Assembly (NCBI RefSeq): GCF_011694815.1
Contig: NZ_CP050177.1
Span: forward strand, 1,364,001-1,428,000
Length of the DNA: 64,000 nt
Direction: 5' to 3'
DNA from: Streptomyces liangshanensis
Lineage (GTDB): Bacteria; Actinomycetota; Actinomycetes; Streptomycetales; Streptomycetaceae
Shown here: positions 19,635 to 41,975 of the stretch, piece by piece
Layout of the letters: every line of letters starts with the position of its first letter
Position numbering within the stretch: position 1 is the stretch's first letter
The notes under the pieces: model-generated
The model's database searches: none
What the model was told of the DNA's origin: nothing
Seen by the model: the letters and a program-made list of their open reading frames with translations, nothing else
Made by a program: the position numbers and the translations under genes

Positions 19635-21260
19635 TCAGGAGTGCAGCCCGGCCCATACCTGTTCGAACTCGCCGCGCATCTTGTCGCCGATCGACGTGCG
19701 CCACGCTTTCACGGCGCTCCGCACGTCGTCCCAGTCCGCGTCGGACCGCATGTAGCCCTTCAGCGGGCCCTGGATGATGTCCTCCTTGGCCTGGCTGCCG
19801 TAGGTGACGTTGGTCTCCGAGTACAGGCCGTACGAAGCGTCGGGCGCGAGGACCTTCACGGCACGCTGCTGCCACGCGTACTGGCGCCGTACGGGCCCCG
19901 CGTCCTGCGGGTAGTAGAGGCTCTGGGCGGCGTCCGTGGTGCTGCTGGTGGGGAGCACCACGTTCGTGGCGCCCACCGGGGTCATGATCGGGTCCGGTCC
20001 CTTGTACGCGAAGTCGTGGCCTTCCACGCCGTACTTGCGCAGCAGGTAGTGGTCGGTGCCGAAGGGCGAGGCGAGCAGGTTGAACGCGCGGAGCAGTTGC
20101 TCGATGCGTTCCTTGGGGGCCTTCTTGAGGGAGAGCATCGCGAAGTTGGACGGGCCGGCCCAGTGGGTTCCCTCGCCGCCGTCGAACCCGGGGGCGATCA
20201 TCGCGTCGATGTCGAACTTCGGGTCGGTGGCGCCGTACTGGAGGAGGTATTGGTTCCAGGCGAGGTTGCCGTCGTAGTTCATGGCGATCTGGCCGTTGCC
20301 GAACCAGTCCTTGAACTTGCCGACGGTGGTGAAGCCGTCCGGGTGGATCGTCTGCGCCTTGACCAGTTGGCGCATGGCGTCGAGGGCCTGGCGGAGGATG
20401 TCGGTCTCCTCCAGCCACCAGGTGAACTTCCCGTCCGTCTCCCGCCAGGTGTTCGCCCCGTGCAGCATCTCCAGGACGAAGTACAGGGTGACGAGCGGGT
20501 CCCCGTTGGCGTACTTCGCGTGCCGGGGGTCGGAGAGGTCCTTGCTGAGCTGGAGGAACTCCTTGAACGACCGCGGGCGCGGGTCGAGGTCCTTCTCCTT
20601 GAAGAGGTCGGCCCGGTAGAACATGGCGGATCCGCTGTTGGCGCGGGGCATCGGCAGGCCGTACAGGCCGCCGGCGACGATCATGGGGCCCCAGGACGCG
20701 GTGGGGATGTTCGCCAGGTAGGGGTAGCGCCGCACGCCACCGCCGGAGAGGTACGGCGAGAGGTCCTCGAAGAGCGCGTTGAGCATGCCGGGCTGCCGGG
20801 GCGCCGTGGGCAGCACGAGCATCGCGTCGGGGAGGTCGCCGCCGGCCACGGTCAGGGAGAACTTCACCGGGTAGTTCGCCACCGGCACGATCTCGTAGTT
20901 CAGGTCGGTGCCGAGGGTCTCGTTGAGCTTCCGCCACATCGGGTTCTTGGACGCGGGCGGCGGTACGGGGTTGAACGTCAGGGTCATGACGTCGATGGGC
21001 GGTCCCTCGGCGGGCGGCCCGTCGGGCGCGGCCGCGACCGGGTGCTTCGGATAGTGGTAGTAGCCGTTGAGCACCCCCGACTCGGTGCCGGGGAGGTCAG
21101 GTCGCAACCCCCGGTAGGGGACGAAGTCCGGCGGTTTCACGGCGGCGTTGGCCGCGGGGGGCGGCGGGGCCGCGGCGTCCCCGCAGGCCGCGAGGGCGGG
21201 CAGGGCGGCGGTGGCGAGTCCCGCGAGGAGGACGTTTCGGCGGGTGGGGTGCGCACCCAT
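19635..21260 (-). CDS. Lipoprotein oligosaccharide-binding protein of a CUT1 ABC importer
   Basis: 541 residues from ATG 21260, preceded by GAAGAAGGGA. The signal peptide has a twin-arginine-like start (TRRNVLLAG) and lipobox LAAC with Cys26, so it is a lipid-anchored extracellular receptor. Length and motifs (FKEFLQLSKDLSDPRH, PRANSGSAMFYRADLF) match the LplA/YtcQ group of large solute-binding proteins for complex oligosaccharides. The two permeases lie directly upstream. No ATPase gene is nearby, so a shared ATPase such as MsiK is likely. The ligand is presumably a mannose-containing oligosaccharide, judging by the GH38 neighbours. Confidence 0.92.
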   Translation of the reverse strand: MGAHPTRRNVLLAGLATAALPALAACGDAAAPPPPAANAAVKPPDFVPYRGLRPDLPGTESGVLNGYYHYPKHPVAAAPDGPPAEGPPIDVMTLTFNPVPPPASKNPMWRKLNETLGTDLNYEIVPVANYPVKFSLTVAGGDLPDAMLVLPTAPRQPGMLNALFEDLSPYLSGGGVRRYPYLANIPTASWGPMIVAGGLYGLPMPRANSGSAMFYRADLFKEKDLDPRPRSFKEFLQLSKDLSDPRHAKYANGDPLVTLYFVLEMLHGANTWRETDGKFTWWLEETDILRQALDAMRQLVKAQTIHPDGFTTVGKFKDWFGNGQIAMNYDGNLAWNQYLLQYGATDPKFDIDAMIAPGFDGGEGTHWAGPSNFAMLSLKKAPKERIEQLLRAFNLLASPFGTDHYLLRKYGVEGHDFAYKGPDPIMTPVGATNVVLPTSSTTDAAQSLYYPQDAGPVRRQYAWQQRAVKVLAPDASYGLYSETNVTYGSQAKEDIIQGPLKGYMRSDADWDDVRSAVKAWRTSIGDKMRGEFEQVWAGLHS

Positions 21261-34632: not shown

Positions 34633-34735
34633 CGCACCATGACTCCAGTGTCCTTCGTCACAAAGGCCCCACCCGCACCCAAGGGCGCGGCGGGCGGGAA
34701 GCCGGGGGTGGCGTCGCCCGCAGGCCCACGTTAGA

Positions 34736-34769
34736 GTCAGCTGACTATTTGCACAAATAGTCAGCTGAC
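34736..34769. promoter_or_regulatory. HxlR-regulon operator, copy 1, in a 34-bp palindrome
   Basis: Core CTGACT-N12-AGTCAG is at 34741-34764. It is the longest copy: 16-bp arms (GTCAGCTGACTATTTG and its complement) with only two central bases unpaired, 34736-34769. It lies 17 bases before the GTG of the thioesterase-hxlR operon. Confidence 0.8.
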
Positions 34770-34786
34770 ATCGGAAGGGGTTCGCG

Positions 34787-35320
34787 GTGCCCAGATCTCG
34801 CACCTACACCTGGGAGGACCCCGGGACGACGGCGTCGGCCGTCGGCGGCACCGCCGGCCTGGAGTTCATGCGGGACGTGCTCGCCGGGCGGCTGCCGGCG
34901 CCGCCGTTCGCCGCCACCCTGGGCACCGTCCTGGAAGAGGTGGGACCGGGCCACGCCGTCTTCACCCTGGTCCCCGGCGAGGAGCACTACAACCCGCTGG
35001 GGACCGTGCACGGCGGCGTGTTCGCCACGCTCCTGGACTCCGCCGCGGGATGCGCGGTGCACACCCTGCTGCCCGCGGGCATGGCCTACACGTCGCTCGA
35101 CCTCACGGTGAAGTTCCTGCGCCCGGTGACCGCCGCGAGCGGGCGGATCCGGGCCGTGGGCAGCGTCCTCAGCAGCGGGCGGCGGACCGCGCTCGCGGAG
35201 GCGCGGATGTACGACGCCGAGGACCGGCTCCTGGCCCACGCGACCAGCAGCTGCATGATCTTCCCCGCACCCGCGTCCACACCCGCGTCCGCACCCGCAC
35301 CCGCGTCCACATCCGGGTGA
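34787..35320 (+). CDS. PaaI-type hotdog thioesterase
   Basis: 177 residues from GTG 34787. The hotdog motif YNPLGTVHGG (69-77) followed by ATLLDSAAG places His75-Gly-Gly and Asp84 as in the PaaI/YbgC-like acyl-CoA thioesterase group. TSLDLTVKFLRPV is the second strand signature. It should hydrolyse an aryl- or acyl-CoA. The last 18 residues are a low-complexity Pro/Ala/Ser/Thr tail. It shares an operon with the HxlR gene 16 bases downstream and has a 34-bp palindrome in its promoter. Confidence 0.9.
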   Translation: MPRSRTYTWEDPGTTASAVGGTAGLEFMRDVLAGRLPAPPFAATLGTVLEEVGPGHAVFTLVPGEEHYNPLGTVHGGVFATLLDSAAGCAVHTLLPAGMAYTSLDLTVKFLRPVTAASGRIRAVGSVLSSGRRTALAEARMYDAEDRLLAHATSSCMIFPAPASTPASAPAPASTSG

Positions 35321-35336
35321 GGAAGGAACGTCGACG

Positions 35337-35645
35337 GTGAGCATCCTGGACATGCTGGGACAGCGGTGGACGCTGCGGATCGTGCGGGAGGTGTCCCTCG
35401 GTGAGCACCGCTTCAGCCGGATCGCGGACGGTACGGGAGTGTCGAGGAACATCCTCGCGGACCGACTGCGCCAGCTCACCCACGCCGGGATCGTCGAGTG
35501 CCGGCCGTACAGCGAGCATCCTCCGCGCCACGAGTACCACCTCACGCCCGCGGGCCTCGAACTGGCCCGGATGATCGTGGAGTTGTGCACCTGGGACCAC
35601 CGGTGGAACGGGGCGCCGGGTCCCGAAGGCGCCCCTTCGGGCTGA
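35337..35645 (+). CDS. HxlR-family winged-helix regulator (short form)
   Basis: 102 residues from GTG 35337 with GAAGGAA upstream. LDMLGQRWTLRIVREV, FSRIADGTGVSRNILADRLRQLTHAGIVE, PPRHEYHLTPAGLELA is the HxlR winged helix. The usual N-terminal CP-x-L segment is missing because the protein starts at the first helix. HxlR proteins bind as dimers to short inverted repeats. It is co-transcribed with a thioesterase and probably one of two proteins reading the CTGACT-N12-AGTCAG sites. Confidence 0.88.
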   Translation: MSILDMLGQRWTLRIVREVSLGEHRFSRIADGTGVSRNILADRLRQLTHAGIVECRPYSEHPPRHEYHLTPAGLELARMIVELCTWDHRWNGAPGPEGAPSG

Positions 35646-35650
35646 CCGGC

Positions 35651-35750
35651 GCCCCTCTCGATCCCGCTCGGCCCCTCTCGATCCCGCTCGGCCCCTCTCG
35701 ATCCCGCTCGGCCCCTCTCGATCCCGCTCGGCCCCTCTCGATCCCGCTCG
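35651..35750. repeat. Five perfect tandem copies of a 20-bp unit
   Basis: GCCCCTCTCGATCCCGCTCG repeats exactly five times end to end, followed by partial GTCCCGCTCAGTCCCGC. It lies between convergent hxlR and ketosynthase genes and overlaps no coding region. No spacers, so it is not a CRISPR array. Confidence 0.95.
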
Positions 35751-35757
35751 GTCCCGC

Positions 35758-36990
35758 TCAGTCCCGCGCCGGGGGCACGAGGACCAGGCTCGCGTTGTGG
35801 CCGCCGAAGCCGAAGCTGTTGGAGAGGACGGGGCCGGGGGTCCAGCTCGTGGGCGAGCGCGGCACGTCGATGTCCAGGGCGGGGTCCTGGACGGTGAGGC
35901 CGAGGGTCGGCGGAAGGGTCCGGTGGCCGATCGTCAGGGCGACGGCCACGGCCTCGACCGCCCCGGCGGCGCCGAAGGAGTGGCCGGTGGCGCCCTTGAT
36001 GCTGGTGACCGGCGGGCGCGCCGTACCGAACACCCGGCGGACCGCAAGGGCCTCGGCATGGTCGTTCAGCGTGGTCGAGGTGCCGTGGGCGTTGATGTGC
36101 GCGATGTCGTCGGGCCGCAGGCCGGCGTCCTCGATCGCGAGCCGCATGCACCGTTCCGCGCCGGAGCCGTCGGGCGCCGGGGCGGTGACGTGGTGCGCGT
36201 CGGCGGTGGAGGCGGCGCCCTCGATGGTCATCCAGACCCGCGCGCCGCGGGCGAGCGCGGCCTCCAGGGGCTCCAGCACCACGACACCGGCGGCCTCGGA
36301 GGCGGCGAGGCCGTCCCGTTCGGTGTCGAAGGGGCGCGAGACGCCGGTGGGGCTCAGCGCCCGCATGTTCGCGAAGCCCGCGACGCACGTCGGCGTGAGG
36401 CTGGAGTCGCTGCCGCCGGCGACGACGAGATCGGCGGTGCCCGCGGCGATCATCCGCGCGCCGGCCGCGATGGCGTCGGCGCCCGCCGCGCACGCGGTGG
36501 TGACCGTCGTGGCCGGCCCGCGGAGCCCGTAGCGGATGCTCAGCGCGGCCGCGGCCGCGTTCGGCATCGTCATCGGGACGACGTGCGGGGACACCTGGCG
36601 CTCCCCGCGCTCCCGCAGCACGTCGGCCTGCGCCTCCAGCGTGGCCACGCCTCCGATGCCCGTCCCCAGGGACACGGCGGCGCGTTCCGCGTCGACGCCG
36701 GTCAACAGCCGTGCGGCCGGGGCCGGTTCGCCGGCTCCGCGCGGCACGAGCAGCCCGGCGTCCTCCAGCGCCTCGTCGGCCGCGGCGACCGCCATGGACG
36801 CCGAGATGTCGGAGTTGCGCGCCTGCTTGTGCGGCATCCAGCGGCGGGGGTCGAATCCGTCGAGCCTGCGCACCCGCGCCGCTCCCGCCGGGCGGGAGAG
36901 CCCCGCCCAGAACGCGTCCACGCCGATGCCCACGGGCGAGACGACACCGATGCCTGTCACGGCGACGCGGCGGTTCATGAGCGGTTTCAT
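35758..36990 (-). CDS. Beta-ketoacyl-ACP synthase II-like (FabF family)
   Basis: 410 residues with the complete condensing-enzyme triad: Cys167 in TTACAAG, His302 in NAHGTST, His337 in KGATGHSFG. It should condense an acyl thioester with malonyl-ACP. There is no neighbouring ACP, malonyl transferase or ketoreductase, so it may serve a stray or dedicated role rather than a whole polyketide cluster. ATG 36990 has AAGGA nine bases upstream; ATG 36978 is an alternative. Two HxlR-regulon dyads lie 105-161 bases upstream. Confidence 0.92.
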   Translation of the reverse strand: MKPLMNRRVAVTGIGVVSPVGIGVDAFWAGLSRPAGAARVRRLDGFDPRRWMPHKQARNSDISASMAVAAADEALEDAGLLVPRGAGEPAPAARLLTGVDAERAAVSLGTGIGGVATLEAQADVLRERGERQVSPHVVPMTMPNAAAAALSIRYGLRGPATTVTTACAAGADAIAAGARMIAAGTADLVVAGGSDSSLTPTCVAGFANMRALSPTGVSRPFDTERDGLAASEAAGVVVLEPLEAALARGARVWMTIEGAASTADAHHVTAPAPDGSGAERCMRLAIEDAGLRPDDIAHINAHGTSTTLNDHAEALAVRRVFGTARPPVTSIKGATGHSFGAAGAVEAVAVALTIGHRTLPPTLGLTVQDPALDIDVPRSPTSWTPGPVLSNSFGFGGHNASLVLVPPARD

Positions 36991-37094
36991 CCGAGAACAT
37001 CCTTACAGTTCGTCCCGTTCGGGAGCCTCGGCGCGACCGGTCACACCCTCGGGCGCCGTGGCGCCGGCCCGGCACCGGACCTGCGCGACACCCC

Positions 37095-37118
37095 CTGACT
37101 ACCCTTTGACAAAGTCAG
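37095..37118. promoter_or_regulatory. HxlR-regulon operator, copy 2
   Basis: CTGACT-N12-AGTCAG between the divergent ketosynthase and DUF302 genes. It contains TTGACA (37106-37111), a likely -35 box for the DUF302 gene, so binding would block its promoter. Copy 3 starts 33 bases further, about three helical turns. Confidence 0.75.
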
Positions 37119-37127
37119 CCTAGCGCA

Positions 37128-37151
37128 CTGACTATGAGGCACCATAGTCAG
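37128..37151. promoter_or_regulatory. HxlR-regulon operator, copy 3
   Basis: CTGACT-N12-AGTCAG with longer arms (CTGACTATG and CATAGTCAG). GACTAT at 37130-37135 could be the -10 box paired with TTGACA in copy 2. It ends 29 bases before the DUF302 start. Confidence 0.78.
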
Positions 37152-37180
37152 GTGAGCGGTACCGACAGCGAGGTAGCACC

Positions 37181-37663
37181 ATGAGCGGAACGACAACACG
37201 GACGTTCACGATCGAGCACGTCACCGTCGTCTCGAACCGGTCGTTCGACGACACGCGTGAGGCGTTCGAACGGATCCTGGGCCGGTTCGACGAGGGCATC
37301 TTCACCCGTCTCGGCTCGGGGGACGTCGCGGGTGCGCTGGAGGCGATGGAGGCGCTCGCCCCGCTGGTCATCGCGGGCGAGCGCAACCACGGCATCCTGC
37401 TGAGGACCGTCGGCCTCGACCGGCGCGCGATCCAGTACGACTGCGGCAACGCCCTGATGGCCACCCGCATGACACGCCATCAGCTCTCCGCGTCCATGTA
37501 CGCCCCGATCCGCGTGCTCCTGCGCGAGACCGACGGCGAGGTCGCCTTCGAGTACGACCGCCCCAGCACCACCTTCGGGCAGTTCGGCGACCCCGAGGTC
37601 GACAAGGTGACGCACCACCTCGACACGCTCTTCGAGGAGACGCTCCGCGAGGCGACCTCCTGA
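37181..37663 (+). CDS. DUF302 domain protein
   Basis: 160 residues from ATG 37181 with a weak GAGGT upstream. SFDDTREAFERILGRFDEG and LLRTVGLDRRAIQYDCGNALMATRM match the small alpha/beta DUF302 fold, which forms dimers. No enzymatic function is established. It is divergent from the ketosynthase and sits directly behind two HxlR-type operators, so it belongs to the same regulon. Confidence 0.85.
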   Translation: MSGTTTRTFTIEHVTVVSNRSFDDTREAFERILGRFDEGIFTRLGSGDVAGALEAMEALAPLVIAGERNHGILLRTVGLDRRAIQYDCGNALMATRMTRHQLSASMYAPIRVLLRETDGEVAFEYDRPSTTFGQFGDPEVDKVTHHLDTLFEETLREATS

Positions 37664-37716
37664 GGGGACGCCGGCGGCTCAGACGTCGTAGTGCGGCTCA
37701 GAGGCCCTGGTGCGGC

Positions 37717-38883
37717 TCAGACGTCGTAGTCCGTCAGCTCGAAGCGCTCCAGCGACCCGGTGGTCACCCGGTCGACCACCCCGCCGAGCAGCCGCGAGTA
37801 CGCGACCCTGACGAGGAGGTCACGCGCCCGGATCCGGCGCGGCACCAGGAAGGGGCCGATGCGACGGGCCTGCGCGTGCCCCTCGGCCACGTACGGCCGC
37901 ATGATCCGCTCGTACGAGGCGAAGGCGGTCGCCGGGTTGTCGGCGGCCCCGATCTCGCCTGCCAGGACGTACGCGCCCAGCAGCCCGAGTGCCGTACCCA
38001 GGCCGCCGACGCCCGCGGACCACGCCGCGTCGCCGAGCAGGACCGTACGCCCGGAGGACCAGCGGCCCAGCTCGATCAGCGCCAGCGGGCTGTGGAAGAA
38101 GTCGGGGGCCCCGGCGAGCCGGTCGAGGAACACGGCGGACTCCCAGCCCATTCCGGCGCAGTGCTCCGCCACGAAGGCCTTGAGCCGCTCCGGGTCCCGC
38201 GCGTCCCGGCCCACCGGCCCGGCCGCGAAGCCGAAGCTCGCCCACACCGTCGACTCGTCCGCCGGCTGGGTGACGAGGAGGCCGCGCCCCGGCTCGTTGT
38301 ACAGGACTCCCGTACGCCGCAGGCCGAGGTGGTTGGGCGCCGTCATCCCGGCGATGTGGTAGCCGAGATGGCGGGTGAAGCGCTCCTCCTCGCCGAAGGT
38401 GATCTCCCGCACCCCGGAGTGCGTGCCGTCGGCGCCCACCACGAGGTCGAACGTGCGCGGAGCCCCCTTCGCGAAGGTGGCCCCGACTCCCCCGGTCCCC
38501 TCGGTGAGCGACGTGATGCGGTCGCCGAACACGTACTCCACGGTGTCCCGGCCCGCCTCGTACAGGATCCGGGTGAGATCGCCGCGCAGGATCTCGATCT
38601 CGCCGCTCAGGAAGGCGGACGGCAGCGTGGCGCGACGGCGGCCCGCCGCGTCCACGAAGGCGATGTCGCCCATCCCGGTCCGCCGCTCGGACACGGCGTC
38701 GAGGATGCCCATGCGCCGCAGCAGTTCGGTCTGGCTCCCCCGGAAGTCGACGGCGGCCCCGGCCTCGCGGAGCCGCGGGGCCACTTCCACGACGGTCACC
38801 GTCGCGCCGCGGCGGGCGAGCCAGTACGCGAGGGCGGGGCCGGCGACACCCGCGCCGGAGACGAGGACGCGGGGAGCCTTCAC
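37717..38883 (-). CDS. FAD-dependent aromatic monooxygenase (PHBH fold)
   Basis: 388 residues from GTG 38883, after GGAAG. The FAD/NADH Rossmann motif is VSGAGVAGPALAYWLARRG (8-26); VVGADGTHSGVRE is the DG fingerprint. GRTVLLGDAAWSAGVGGLGTALG is the GD motif that binds FAD ribityl. It is a class A flavin monooxygenase, hydroxylating an aromatic or polyketide-like substrate. The neighbouring MFS exporter, thioesterase and ketosynthase suggest a small aromatic-compound tailoring or resistance set. The 14-base TCAGACGTCGTAGT appears twice around its stop codon (37679-37692 and 37718-37731 approximately). Confidence 0.9.
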   Translation of the reverse strand: MKAPRVLVSGAGVAGPALAYWLARRGATVTVVEVAPRLREAGAAVDFRGSQTELLRRMGILDAVSERRTGMGDIAFVDAAGRRRATLPSAFLSGEIEILRGDLTRILYEAGRDTVEYVFGDRITSLTEGTGGVGATFAKGAPRTFDLVVGADGTHSGVREITFGEEERFTRHLGYHIAGMTAPNHLGLRRTGVLYNEPGRGLLVTQPADESTVWASFGFAAGPVGRDARDPERLKAFVAEHCAGMGWESAVFLDRLAGAPDFFHSPLALIELGRWSSGRTVLLGDAAWSAGVGGLGTALGLLGAYVLAGEIGAADNPATAFASYERIMRPYVAEGHAQARRIGPFLVPRRIRARDLLVRVAYSRLLGGVVDRVTTGSLERFELTDYDV

Positions 38884-38936
38884 GTGTCTTCCGTTCGGGT
38901 AGGTCGGGTCGTTCGGGTGCGTCGGGCCGTACCGGC

Positions 38937-39611
38937 TCAGGGGGCGAGGACCAGGAGCGCGGTGCTCAGGCGGAGCCGGAATCCGAGGGACTCGTAGAGG
39001 CCGACGGCCTTCGTGTTCTCCGCGAGCACGTGCAGGAACGGGGTCTCGCCGCGCTCCTGGATCCCGGCGGCGACGGCGAGCAACAGGCGCGTCCCCAGCC
39101 CCTTCCCGCGCCACCGCGGGTCGGTGCAGACCGCGCTGATCTCCCGCCAGCCGACTATGTGCATGCGCTCCCCGGCCATGGCCACCAGTCGGCCCTCGTG
39201 GCGGACCCCGAGGTACGTGCCCATCTCGATCGTCCGGGGAAGGAAGGGTCCCGGCTTGGTGGCCTCCGCCAGGGCGAGCATCTCCGGGACGTCGTCCAGG
39301 CCGAGCCGTACCGCCTCCTCGTCGGGGGCGGCGGCGATCCCCTCCCCGGTGAACTGGAGCAGCGGGATGCGCCTCACCAACTCCCAGCCCTCCGGCGGCT
39401 CGACACCGGGATCGCCGACCGTCAGCGTCGCCCCCGGCCCGGCGAGCGCCGCGGCGTCGGCCCAGTCGGCCGCGTCGGGACGCTCCGGCAGGGCCACGAA
39501 GGGCGACATGTCGGCCGGGTAGCGCAGCGCGTTCCCCCGCCGCAGCGCGAACGGGGCCTGGGGCCCGGTCAGGGCCGAACGGATCGCGTGGTCCAGGGGA
39601 TGTGACGGCAT
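38937..39611 (-). CDS. GNAT-family N-acetyltransferase
   Basis: 224 residues from ATG 39611. The C-terminal GNAT domain has AVCTDPRWRGKGLGTRLLLAV (the R/Q-x2-G-x-G/A acetyl-CoA loop) and HVLAENTKAVGLYESLGF near the end. The N-terminal 100 residues are a second, degenerate domain as in FR47-like members. The acceptor is unknown. A far longer open frame on this strand reaches past 41900, but it runs antisense through the MFS gene and is not real. Confidence 0.88.
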   Translation of the reverse strand: MPSHPLDHAIRSALTGPQAPFALRRGNALRYPADMSPFVALPERPDAADWADAAALAGPGATLTVGDPGVEPPEGWELVRRIPLLQFTGEGIAAAPDEEAVRLGLDDVPEMLALAEATKPGPFLPRTIEMGTYLGVRHEGRLVAMAGERMHIVGWREISAVCTDPRWRGKGLGTRLLLAVAAGIQERGETPFLHVLAENTKAVGLYESLGFRLRLSTALLVLAP

Positions 39612-39722
39612 GGTGTGCGCGCCTCCGTCGGCGACAGGGCCGATGGGAATCAGCCTCCGGGGTTCACTCAGCGAACCGAATGCTACGCCAACCCCCGCCC
39701 GGCGCCGCAAGCATCCACCCAC

Positions 39723-39746
39723 CTGACTTTCGAAGAAGAGAGTCAG
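39723..39746. promoter_or_regulatory. HxlR-regulon operator, copy 4
   Basis: CTGACT-N12-AGTCAG upstream of the MFS gene at 39765. It covers the expected -35 position. Copy 5 starts 36 bases later. Confidence 0.75.
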
Positions 39747-39758
39747 ACTGCTACGTTC

Positions 39759-39782
39759 CTGACTATGCCTACAAAAAGTCAG
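39759..39782. promoter_or_regulatory. HxlR-regulon operator, copy 5, over the MFS start codon
   Basis: CTGACT-N12-AGTCAG overlapping ATG 39765. TACGTT at 39752-39757 ends seven bases before the ATG, so transcription likely starts at or next to the start codon. A repressor here would sit on the transcription start. Confidence 0.75.
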
Positions 39783-41444
39783 CAGCCCGCCGGCGGCCCG
39801 GGGTCCGGGGCCACCGCCGCCCGCCCCGCCGTTCCCGCGGGCCAGAACATCCCCCGCAGGTGGCTCGGCCTGATGGTGGTGTGCCTCGGCGTGATGATGG
39901 CGTTCGTCAACGTCACCGGCACCATCTCGGCCCTCACCCGCATCCAGGACGACCTGCACATCTCGGCCGCCACCCTCGTCTGGCTGACCAGCGCGTACAG
40001 CCTGGCCGTGGTCAGCCTGGTCATGTCCGCGGGCACCCTGAGCGACCTGATAGGACGCCGGCTGACGTTCATCCTGGGCTCCGTGGTCTTCACCCTCGGC
40101 AGCCTGATGGCCTTCGTGGCCGACAGCCCCGGCACCCTCATCGCCGCCCAGGCCGTCATGGGGCTGGGCGGGGCGGCCGTCCTGCCGTCCAGCCTCACCA
40201 TCGTGACCACGACGTTCACCGATCCGCACGAGCGCACCACCGCGATCAGCGCCTGGGCGGCCTGCTCGGGCCTCGGCCTCGCGGCCGGGCCGCTGATCGC
40301 CGGTGTGCTCCTGGAGCACTTCTCGTGGCACTCCGTCTACCTCACCAATCTCCTGATCGGCGCGGCGGCGGCCGCGCTGGCCCCGTTCTTCGTGCACGAG
40401 AGCAAGCACCCGTCGCGCCGCCTCGACCTGGCCGGCGTCGTCCTCGGTACGGTGACCCTCGCCTCGGCGACGTACGCGATCATCCAGGGCGGCGCGAGCG
40501 GCTACACCGAGCCGCGGATCGTCGTCGCCTACGTGGTCTTCGCGCTCTCCGGGGCGCTGCTGGTCCGCGTGGAACTGCGGCACCACGACCCGATGCTCGA
40601 CCTGCGCCTCTTCCGCAACGCCTCGTTCAGCGCGGTGATGGGGGTGGCCGCCGCGGCCATGTTCGGCTTCGTCGGGGTCGCCCTGCTCACCGTGCTCTCC
40701 ATGCAGCGCGTCCAGCACCTCAGCACGCTCGGTGTCGGGGTGCGGATGCTGGTCCTCTTCGGCACCTTCGTCGCCGTCAGCGCCGTCGCCCCGCGCCTGG
40801 TGCGCAGGTTCGGGTTCACGGTGGTGCTCACCTCGGGCCTCGTGGCCATGGGCGCGGGAGCGCTCGCCCTCCTCGCGGTGGGCCCCTTCGACGGGTACGA
40901 GGCCGTGTGGCCCGGCCTGCTCGTCACGGGCGTCGGCGGCGGTCTGCTGGTCGCCCCGTCGTCCGCGGCCGCCGTCAGCAGTGTTCCCCCGCTCCAGGCC
41001 GGCATGGCCGCCTCGGCCATCAACATGGCCCGCCAGCTCGGGAACGTCCTCGGCCCCAGCGTGCTGGGCACGATCGTCACGACCCACTTCCCCGACAACC
41101 TCCACGAGCGGCTCACCGGCGCCGGCGTCCCCGCCGCCGACGCCCGGCGGATCGCGGAGGGCGCGGCGCACGGCAGCAGCGGGTCCGGGCTCCCCGCGTC
41201 CCTGGTCCACACGGTCGCCGACGCGGTGCCGCGCGCCTTCACGGACGCGGTGCACCGGGGGCTGCTCGTCGCCGGCGTCGTCGTCCTGCTCGTCGCGATC
41301 CCGTCCGCGCTCTTCGTCCGGCACCGGCTGCCGGCCGCGTCCGCTCCCGTACCCACACCCGGCCAGGACACCGCTTCCGGCGGTCCTTCCGGCAGCGAGT
41401 CCGGGGCCGGAGCCGCTGGCGGGCCGACGGCCGGGGCCAGGTGA
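39765..41444 (+). CDS. MFS exporter, DHA2 family (14 TM)
   Basis: 559 residues from ATG 39765, without a Shine-Dalgarno and with a -10-like TACGTT seven bases upstream, so probably leaderless. DHA2 marks are FVNVTGTISALTRIQDDLHIS in TM1, the loop SDLIGRRLTFILG, motif C SGLGLAAGPLIAGVL in TM5, and a long Ala/Ser/Pro tail. It should expel a hydrophobic compound. Two HxlR-type dyads cover the promoter and start codon, and the hxlR gene follows 36 bases after the stop. Confidence 0.92.
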   Translation: MPTKSQQPAGGPGSGATAARPAVPAGQNIPRRWLGLMVVCLGVMMAFVNVTGTISALTRIQDDLHISAATLVWLTSAYSLAVVSLVMSAGTLSDLIGRRLTFILGSVVFTLGSLMAFVADSPGTLIAAQAVMGLGGAAVLPSSLTIVTTTFTDPHERTTAISAWAACSGLGLAAGPLIAGVLLEHFSWHSVYLTNLLIGAAAAALAPFFVHESKHPSRRLDLAGVVLGTVTLASATYAIIQGGASGYTEPRIVVAYVVFALSGALLVRVELRHHDPMLDLRLFRNASFSAVMGVAAAAMFGFVGVALLTVLSMQRVQHLSTLGVGVRMLVLFGTFVAVSAVAPRLVRRFGFTVVLTSGLVAMGAGALALLAVGPFDGYEAVWPGLLVTGVGGGLLVAPSSAAAVSSVPPLQAGMAASAINMARQLGNVLGPSVLGTIVTTHFPDNLHERLTGAGVPAADARRIAEGAAHGSSGSGLPASLVHTVADAVPRAFTDAVHRGLLVAGVVVLLVAIPSALFVRHRLPAASAPVPTPGQDTASGGPSGSESGAGAAGGPTAGAR

Positions 41445-41464
41445 CTTTTGTCGCCCATAGTCAG
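41441..41464. promoter_or_regulatory. HxlR-regulon operator, copy 6
   Basis: GTGACT-N12-AGTCAG, one base off the consensus, overlapping the MFS stop codon and 16 bases before the hxlR start. It suggests the second HxlR protein controls its own gene. Confidence 0.7.
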
Positions 41465-41480
41465 TGGGTACGCTGGTCCC

Positions 41481-41975
41481 ATGGATGACCTGTCGAAGTC
41501 CCCTGACGCACAGGCGCTCGCCAACTGCCCGGTCTCCCGGACCCTCGAAGTGGTCGGCACGCGCTCCACCCTGCTCCTCATGCGCGAGGCGTTCTTCGGG
41601 ACCCGCCGGTTCCAGGACTTCACCCGGCGGGTGGGCATCGGCGAGGCCGCCACGGCGGCCCGGCTGAAGGAAATGACGGCGTACGGGCTCCTGGAGAAGA
41701 TCCCCTACCAGGAGCCCGGCCAGCGCAAGCGGTACGAGTACCGGCTGACCGCGAAGGGCCAGGACCTCTTCGCCGCCATCACGTCGCTGCGCGACTGGGG
41801 CGAGACCTGGACGCCCGACGACGGGCACGGGCCCACCCCCTGGCGCTTCACGCACCAGGACTGCGGGGCGGAGGTCCACACGGTGACGCGCTGCTCGGCC
41901 GGCCACGACGTGCACGCCGGGGACTGCACCGCGGTCCGGGAACCCGAACGCGCTCTCGGCGGCCGGGTTTCCTGA
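41481..41975 (+). CDS. HxlR-family transcriptional regulator
   Basis: 164 residues from ATG 41481. It has the full HxlR pattern: NCPVSRTLEVVG, STLLLMREAFFGTRRFQDFTRRVGI, AARLKEMTAYGLLEKIPY and RYEYRLTAKGQDL. A C-terminal extension has HQDCGAEVHTVTRCSAGHDV, a Cys/His-rich tail of the kind that may bind metal or sense redox. TACGCT (41469-41474) ends six bases before ATG and there is no ribosome site, so a leaderless mRNA is likely. It is the best candidate reader of the six dyads. Confidence 0.92.
   Translation: MDDLSKSPDAQALANCPVSRTLEVVGTRSTLLLMREAFFGTRRFQDFTRRVGIGEAATAARLKEMTAYGLLEKIPYQEPGQRKRYEYRLTAKGQDLFAAITSLRDWGETWTPDDGHGPTPWRFTHQDCGAEVHTVTRCSAGHDVHAGDCTAVREPERALGGRVS

Follow-up and report, generated by a model that had tools for sequence, protein, structure and literature searches.

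In a 64,000-nucleotide stretch of Streptomyces liangshanensis DNA (contig NZ_CP050177.1, positions 1,364,001 to 1,428,000; here called the window), six copies of the dyad CTGACT-N12-AGTCAG lie in a cluster of genes for a thioesterase, two HxlR proteins (HxlR1 and HxlR2), a ketosynthase, a DUF302 protein, a flavin adenine dinucleotide (FAD) monooxygenase, a GNAT acetyltransferase and an MFS exporter. From the comparison of genome sequences, HxlR2 is in all likelihood the dimeric regulator of these dyads, and it would most likely repress its own gene, the exporter gene, the thioesterase operon and the ketosynthase/DUF302 pair. The GNAT-monooxygenase pair is a probable further part of the regulon; for the monooxygenase we infer this from its position behind the GNAT gene. 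The regulon as a whole is well supported by comparison between genomes. It is of a known kind, HxlR autoregulation, and the placement of its operators is unusual.

A pattern scan of the window returned five exact dyads (putative operators O1 to O5) and one with a single mismatch (O6). A preliminary description of this DNA had reported the same six copies, all in promoter positions and with no others in the window, and the scan bore this out. The sites lie before the thioesterase gene, in the gap between the divergent ketosynthase and DUF302 genes (O2 and O3), before the MFS gene and before hxlR2, and the best further match carries 2 mismatches (at 21077). Allowing as many as 3 mismatches gave 12 matches in the window versus 16.9 expected. 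This is no excess, so the signal resides in the near-perfect matches. The whole genome (one contig of 7,716,784 bases) contained 6 exact dyads, 5 of them inside 5,042 bp of the cluster and a single one elsewhere. When 1 mismatch was allowed, 11 dyads were found, compared with 2 for a reversed-pattern control. The relaxed pattern CTRRCT-N12-AGYYAG returned the identical 6 sites and added none (control, 3). Shuffled DNA (seven related loci, mononucleotide-shuffled three times; 336 kb in total) gave no match at 0 or 1 mismatch and 3 at 2 mismatches.

We searched 246 genomes of the same genus with HxlR2. Matches at E <= 1e-35 were present in 49 of them and 30 loci were returned, which split into 9 at >=55% identity (the window and 8 orthologues at 55-62%) and 21 paralogues at 47-52%. 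All nine genes of the first group, the HxlR2 clade, had one or two dyads (at most 2 mismatches) within 100 bp upstream. In contrast, such a dyad was found in none of the 21 paralogues, which were 21 of 40 listed paralogue matches, in a scanned stretch reaching from at most 400 bp upstream to 60 bp into the gene. Exact dyads from an independent pattern search in three genomes (G117, G016 and G020) coincided with the HxlR2-clade sites. Judging from this clade-specific association, the protein that binds the dyads is very probably HxlR2. The preliminary description had proposed a single dimeric regulator, one or both of the HxlR proteins; the single regulator gained strong support from other genomes, and "one or both" was narrowed to HxlR2.

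Tandem dyads were defined as two copies of CTGRCT-N12-AGYCAG with 7-18 bp between them (31-42 bp start to start allowed). They occurred in 12 of 384 same-genus genomes, at 13 places including two in the window, and the reversed control gave 0. Ten of the 11 foreign places adjoined an hxlR gene within the 3 kb fetched; at the 11th, in G336, hxlR lies behind the exporter gene. A sample of the class gave tandem dyads in 10 of 296 genomes (control, 0), namely the window genome, two already known and seven from six other genera. Those seven held eight places, 6 of which adjoined hxlR. Overall, hxlR lay within about 2 kb of 17 of the 19 foreign tandem places, and the spacing from start to start was 33-40 bp in the 25 listed pairs. 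HxlR2 relatives (E <= 1e-25) were also found in 11 plasmid records, four of which were opened (L190-L193). A plasmid of Streptomyces sp. NBC_00316 (L190) carries two CTGRCT-N12-AGYCAG sites in tandem, and the HxlR gene of Nocardia farcinica NCTC11134 (L191) is preceded by an exact dyad and a 2-mismatch dyad, 32 bp apart. The dyad scan gave only 3-mismatch matches in L192 and no match in L193. As a separate observation, a single dyad in G108 (L026) lies between a gene for an HxlR protein without the N-terminal cysteine and an FAD-dependent desaturase-like gene.

The start codon of the exporter gene is part of the operator in several of these loci. Among 12 exporters directly adjoining sites, the ATG comes right after the left half-site in 8 (the window, G336, G133, G109, G514, G449, G524 and Streptomyces sp. 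NBC_00316). As the ATG abuts the half-site, the protein begins M-x-x-x-S-Q. For the NBC_00316 exporter, public annotation places the start at the identical operator-linked ATG. Fusions of this kind also occur at the hxlR genes of G449 and G612 and, in the latter genome, at a thioesterase-like gene. In all seven exporters tested, a TANNNT hexamer stops 6-8 nt short of the operator ATG; NBC_00316 agrees by eye, and 2 of the 3 non-exporter fusions have it in the same place. As background, TANNNT starts 13-15 nt upstream of 16 out of 2045 ATGs in the same loci; this comparison is approximate, since at the operators the hexamer starts 12-14 nt upstream. This arrangement would match the expected look of a leaderless message with an operator over its start. 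At the sixth exact dyad of the genome (C1:2309167; L006:5168-5191, G000), the ATG opens a 587-aa open reading frame (ORF) that begins MVGVSQ and is amidohydrolase-like by eye; this ATG lacks a preceding TANNNT, and its surroundings showed no second site.

We propose the following mechanism for the exporter. One HxlR2 dimer would bind upstream of the -10 element and a second one over the transcription start, which would be the start codon of a leaderless message, leaving the -10 element between the two dimers. Dimers on either side of the -10 element, one of them over the start, would fit repression. Reaction of Cys16 with an electrophile or oxidant, or binding of a ligand, would most likely cause HxlR2 to leave the DNA, and with this loss of binding the inducing compound would begin to be exported and modified. 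The N-terminal cysteine has a known sensing role in HxlR/DUF24 factors such as YodB, CatR and HypR. Of 23 operator-linked HxlR proteins, 22 have it, counted by eye, and by analogy its retention in HxlR2 suggests thiol or electrophile sensing.

Several observations weigh against this interpretation. The start-codon fusion is missing in 4 of the 12 directly adjoining exporters (G201, G373, G275 and G412), and the upstream ORF at O3 has no TANNNT at the expected place. Lone exact dyads are poorly specific, with hxlR adjoining 5 of 23 foreign sites. Among the tandem places, L178 adjoins a pair of genes for a short-chain dehydrogenase (SDR) and a thioesterase and has no hxlR within 1.5 kb, and the tandem exact dyads at L179:1501-1557 (G539) have no recognisable partner and no HxlR match within 1.5 kb. 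On three of four listed plasmids, the 11.5 kb fetched with an MFS homologue (66-67% identical) contain no site and no HxlR gene. The N-terminal cysteine occurs equally in the 21 paralogues without a dyad, which marks it as a trait of the family rather than of this operator. HxlR proteins can also act as activators. Finally, a pattern with the ATG built in (CTGRCT-ATG-N9-AGYCAG) gave 12 matches in 6 of 197 genomes versus 4 in the reversed control, and only 6 of the 12 are an exporter or hxlR start. One of the remaining matches is the sixth genomic dyad; the match in G471, the + sites of G514 and G524, and both readings of the window site at 37128 start neither. On these counts the pattern was rejected as a general finder.

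Table 1. Operators, promoter element and genes of the cluster, in window coordinates.
Feature	Position	Strand	Remarks
Operator O1 (putative)	34741..34764	no strand	Exact; inner palindrome nearly perfect; upstream of thioesterase
Hotdog-fold (4HBT) thioesterase	34787..35320	+	Family profile matches
HxlR1, short HxlR protein, 102 aa	35337..35645	+	Family profile; in-frame stop upstream
FabF-like beta-ketoacyl synthase	35758..36990	-	Active-site motifs present; family profiles, motif inspection
Operator O2 (putative)	37095..37118	no strand	Exact; tandem with O3, 33 bp start to start
Operator O3 (putative)	37128..37151	no strand	Exact; encloses ATG of 16-codon upstream ORF
Possible 16-codon upstream ORF (MRHHSQVSGTDSEVAP)	37134..37184	+	Begins inside O3; TGA overlaps DUF302 ATG
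DUF302 protein	37181..37663	+	Family profile
FAD monooxygenase	37717..38883	-	Family profiles, match to solved structures
GNAT acetyltransferase	38937..39611	-	Family profile; divergent from exporter across O4/O5
Operator O4 (putative)	39723..39746	no strand	Exact; tandem with O5, 36 bp start to start; before MFS gene
-10-like TACGTT	39752..39757	+	Between O4 and O5; ends 7 nt before exporter ATG
Operator O5 (putative)	39759..39782	no strand	Exact; encloses exporter ATG (39765), which directly follows left half-site
MFS exporter, DHA2-pump related	39765..41444	+	Family profiles; N-terminus MPTKSQ encoded within O5
Operator O6 (putative)	41441..41464	no strand	One mismatch; spans MFS stop codon (41442-41444), upstream of hxlR2
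HxlR2, proposed regulator	41481..41975	+	N-terminal Cys16 kept; long C-terminal part

The Pfam HxlR winged-helix model matched HxlR2 with 58.5 bits and HxlR1 with 80.7 bits (cut-off 20.8). The MFS protein scored 167.2 bits with MFS_1 (cut-off 33.4) and 188.8 bits with TIGR00711 (DHA2 permease), under the cut-off of 230.2. Its best NCBIfam matches are multidrug MFS exporters of the LfrA/QacA type; with the LfrA model it scored 195.2 bits, far under the curated cut-off of 825. The ketosynthase keeps the Cys/His/His active-site motifs and scored 407.8 bits with the equivalog TIGR03150, under 493.75, and 389.9 bits with the subfamily NF005589, just over 387. The nearest solved relatives of the FAD monooxygenase are the tetracycline destructases and 6-hydroxynicotinate 3-monooxygenase. 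Its score with the tetracycline destructase model (NCBIfam NF033476), 200.3 bits, was under the cut-off of 550. By eye, a -10-like TAGAGT lies near O1 (34732-34737). The overlap of the stop codon of the 16-codon ORF with the DUF302 start could allow translational coupling of both. A 20-bp unit (ctcgatcccgctcggcccct) was seen by eye several times at about 35650-35760, between the convergent HxlR1 and ketosynthase genes.

Thioesterase homologues, 66-70% identical, were found beside HxlR2 orthologues in six genomes (G117, G016, G136, G275, G380 and G373), and in most of those loci opened an SDR and/or an MFS exporter gene is divergent from the thioesterase/HxlR2-orthologue side. Because homologues recur beside HxlR2 orthologues, the thioesterase and exporter found here have probably belonged to the regulon for a long time. 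The gene order of G336 is that of the window, GNAT, two sites, MFS, one site and HxlR, the third site being just behind the exporter stop and before hxlR. Identities to the window proteins are 47% for GNAT, 69% for MFS and only 45% for HxlR. No match to the ketosynthase, DUF302 protein or monooxygenase turned up in the 19 kb fetched from G336, and these three look like local additions. Conservation of sites and genes in other Streptomyces, raised in the preliminary description, holds for the sites with HxlR (the 12 of 384 genomes) and not for the whole cluster, which was not found elsewhere in the genomes compared.

Searching 391 other genomes of the genus with the DUF302 protein gave only 3 matches, all of them weak (32-35% identity). 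A set of 198 other relatives, which shares many genomes with the 391, gave none at E <= 1e-20. Two named Streptomyces proteins are 76-79% identical to it. Loci L031-L036 of DUF302 relatives contain no dyad at up to 2 mismatches. Separately, in 46 loci of DUF302 relatives from named genomes (L034-L079; Planotetraspora, proteobacteria), an HxlR gene was near in 7, a thioesterase gene in 5 and a ketosynthase gene in 3.

The ketosynthase with intact motifs, the thioesterase and the FAD monooxygenase stand together in the cluster, and ketosynthase or thioesterase relatives are near DUF302 in six Methylobacterium loci. Both facts speak for a small biosynthetic pathway with an acyl or aromatic product, as the preliminary description had supposed; HxlR2 would sense this product and the exporter would secrete it. 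This reading is possible but rather doubtful. No acyl carrier protein gene was recognised in the stretch, where no dedicated search was made for one, and the partners that recurred in the other genomes opened were the regulator, exporter, SDR and thioesterase, with the ketosynthase unmatched. Recurrent partners of exporter, SDR and thioesterase type fit export and detoxification as well as biosynthesis.

HxlR1 is the second candidate for binding the dyads. Its gene sits downstream of the thioesterase gene under O1 and its winged-helix domain is kept, as the Pfam score indicates. HxlR1 is too short for good searching, so a longer relative, P0130, was used as the query; the 30 loci obtained hold broad relatives rather than HxlR1 itself. 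Their only dyad-like match was one with 2 mismatches (L137), taken as chance. Compared with its own relatives, HxlR1 lacks the first part including the cysteine and the C-terminal extension. We set HxlR1 aside as the main regulator on the clade evidence and on these shortened ends. A two-regulator circuit, in which HxlR1 binds the dyads as well as HxlR2 or competes with it, seems unlikely.

HxlR2 could also be an activator, with the upstream site in every tandem pair being required for its action. Bacillus subtilis HxlR is termed an activator in its Protein Data Bank (PDB) entries, and tandem sites can serve activation. We consider this quite improbable, as the exporter pair has one site lying over both the presumed transcription start and the start codon, a position that suits repression, and O6 overlaps, by eye, a -35/-10-like pair of hxlR2. 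That the dyads are chance occurrences or have no relation to HxlR is extremely improbable: exact dyads have a background of about 0.1 per genome (23 foreign sites in 149 genomes versus 12 in 150 in the reversed control), yet five exact copies lie within 5 kb in a genome holding six, both tandem controls were empty, and the dyad is associated with the HxlR2 clade.

More broadly, we tentatively put forward, as an idea that is plausible though by no means assured, that an HxlR clade controls leaderless exporters in several actinobacterial genera by means of an operator which doubles as their first six codons (M-x3-S-Q), and that here the circuit recruited the ketosynthase, DUF302 protein and perhaps the monooxygenase into a new detoxification or metabolite pathway. 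If so, the N-terminal sequence of the exporter would be set by a repressor site, and protein sequences alone could suffice to find members of the regulon. The assignment of an operator to a specific HxlR clade provides a searchable signature, tandem CTGRCT-N12-AGYCAG with exporter N-termini M-x3-S-Q, and opens the regulator-operator-exporter circuit to simple experimental test. It further suggests a way in which leaderless genes can carry a repressor site within the beginning of their coding sequence.

In the open-licence literature searched, as far as its text was available, we found no description of the dyad operator of the HxlR2 clade. Kin to HxlR2 are the HxlR-type (MarR/DUF24) repressors CatR and YodB, which act on catDE in Bacillus subtilis. 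In the excerpts of PMC6212828, CatR is a repressor with two boxes on the catDE promoter, drawn with -35, -10 and +1; it senses catechols, and YodB acts on quinone and diamide detoxification genes. The genes of that system differ from those of the window, and these excerpts give no site sequence and mention no start-codon fusion. Bacillus subtilis HxlR (PDB 7BZD/7BZE/7BZG) belongs to the same Pfam family and matches HxlR2 weakly (E 0.0011-0.0021). By its PDB entry name it is a transcriptional activator, unlike the repressor role proposed for HxlR2, and it has been used for formaldehyde sensors, according to PMC7835342. The top-scoring solved structure for HxlR2 is PA1607 (PDB 2F2E), which matches residues 13-143 with an E-value of 1.9e-20.

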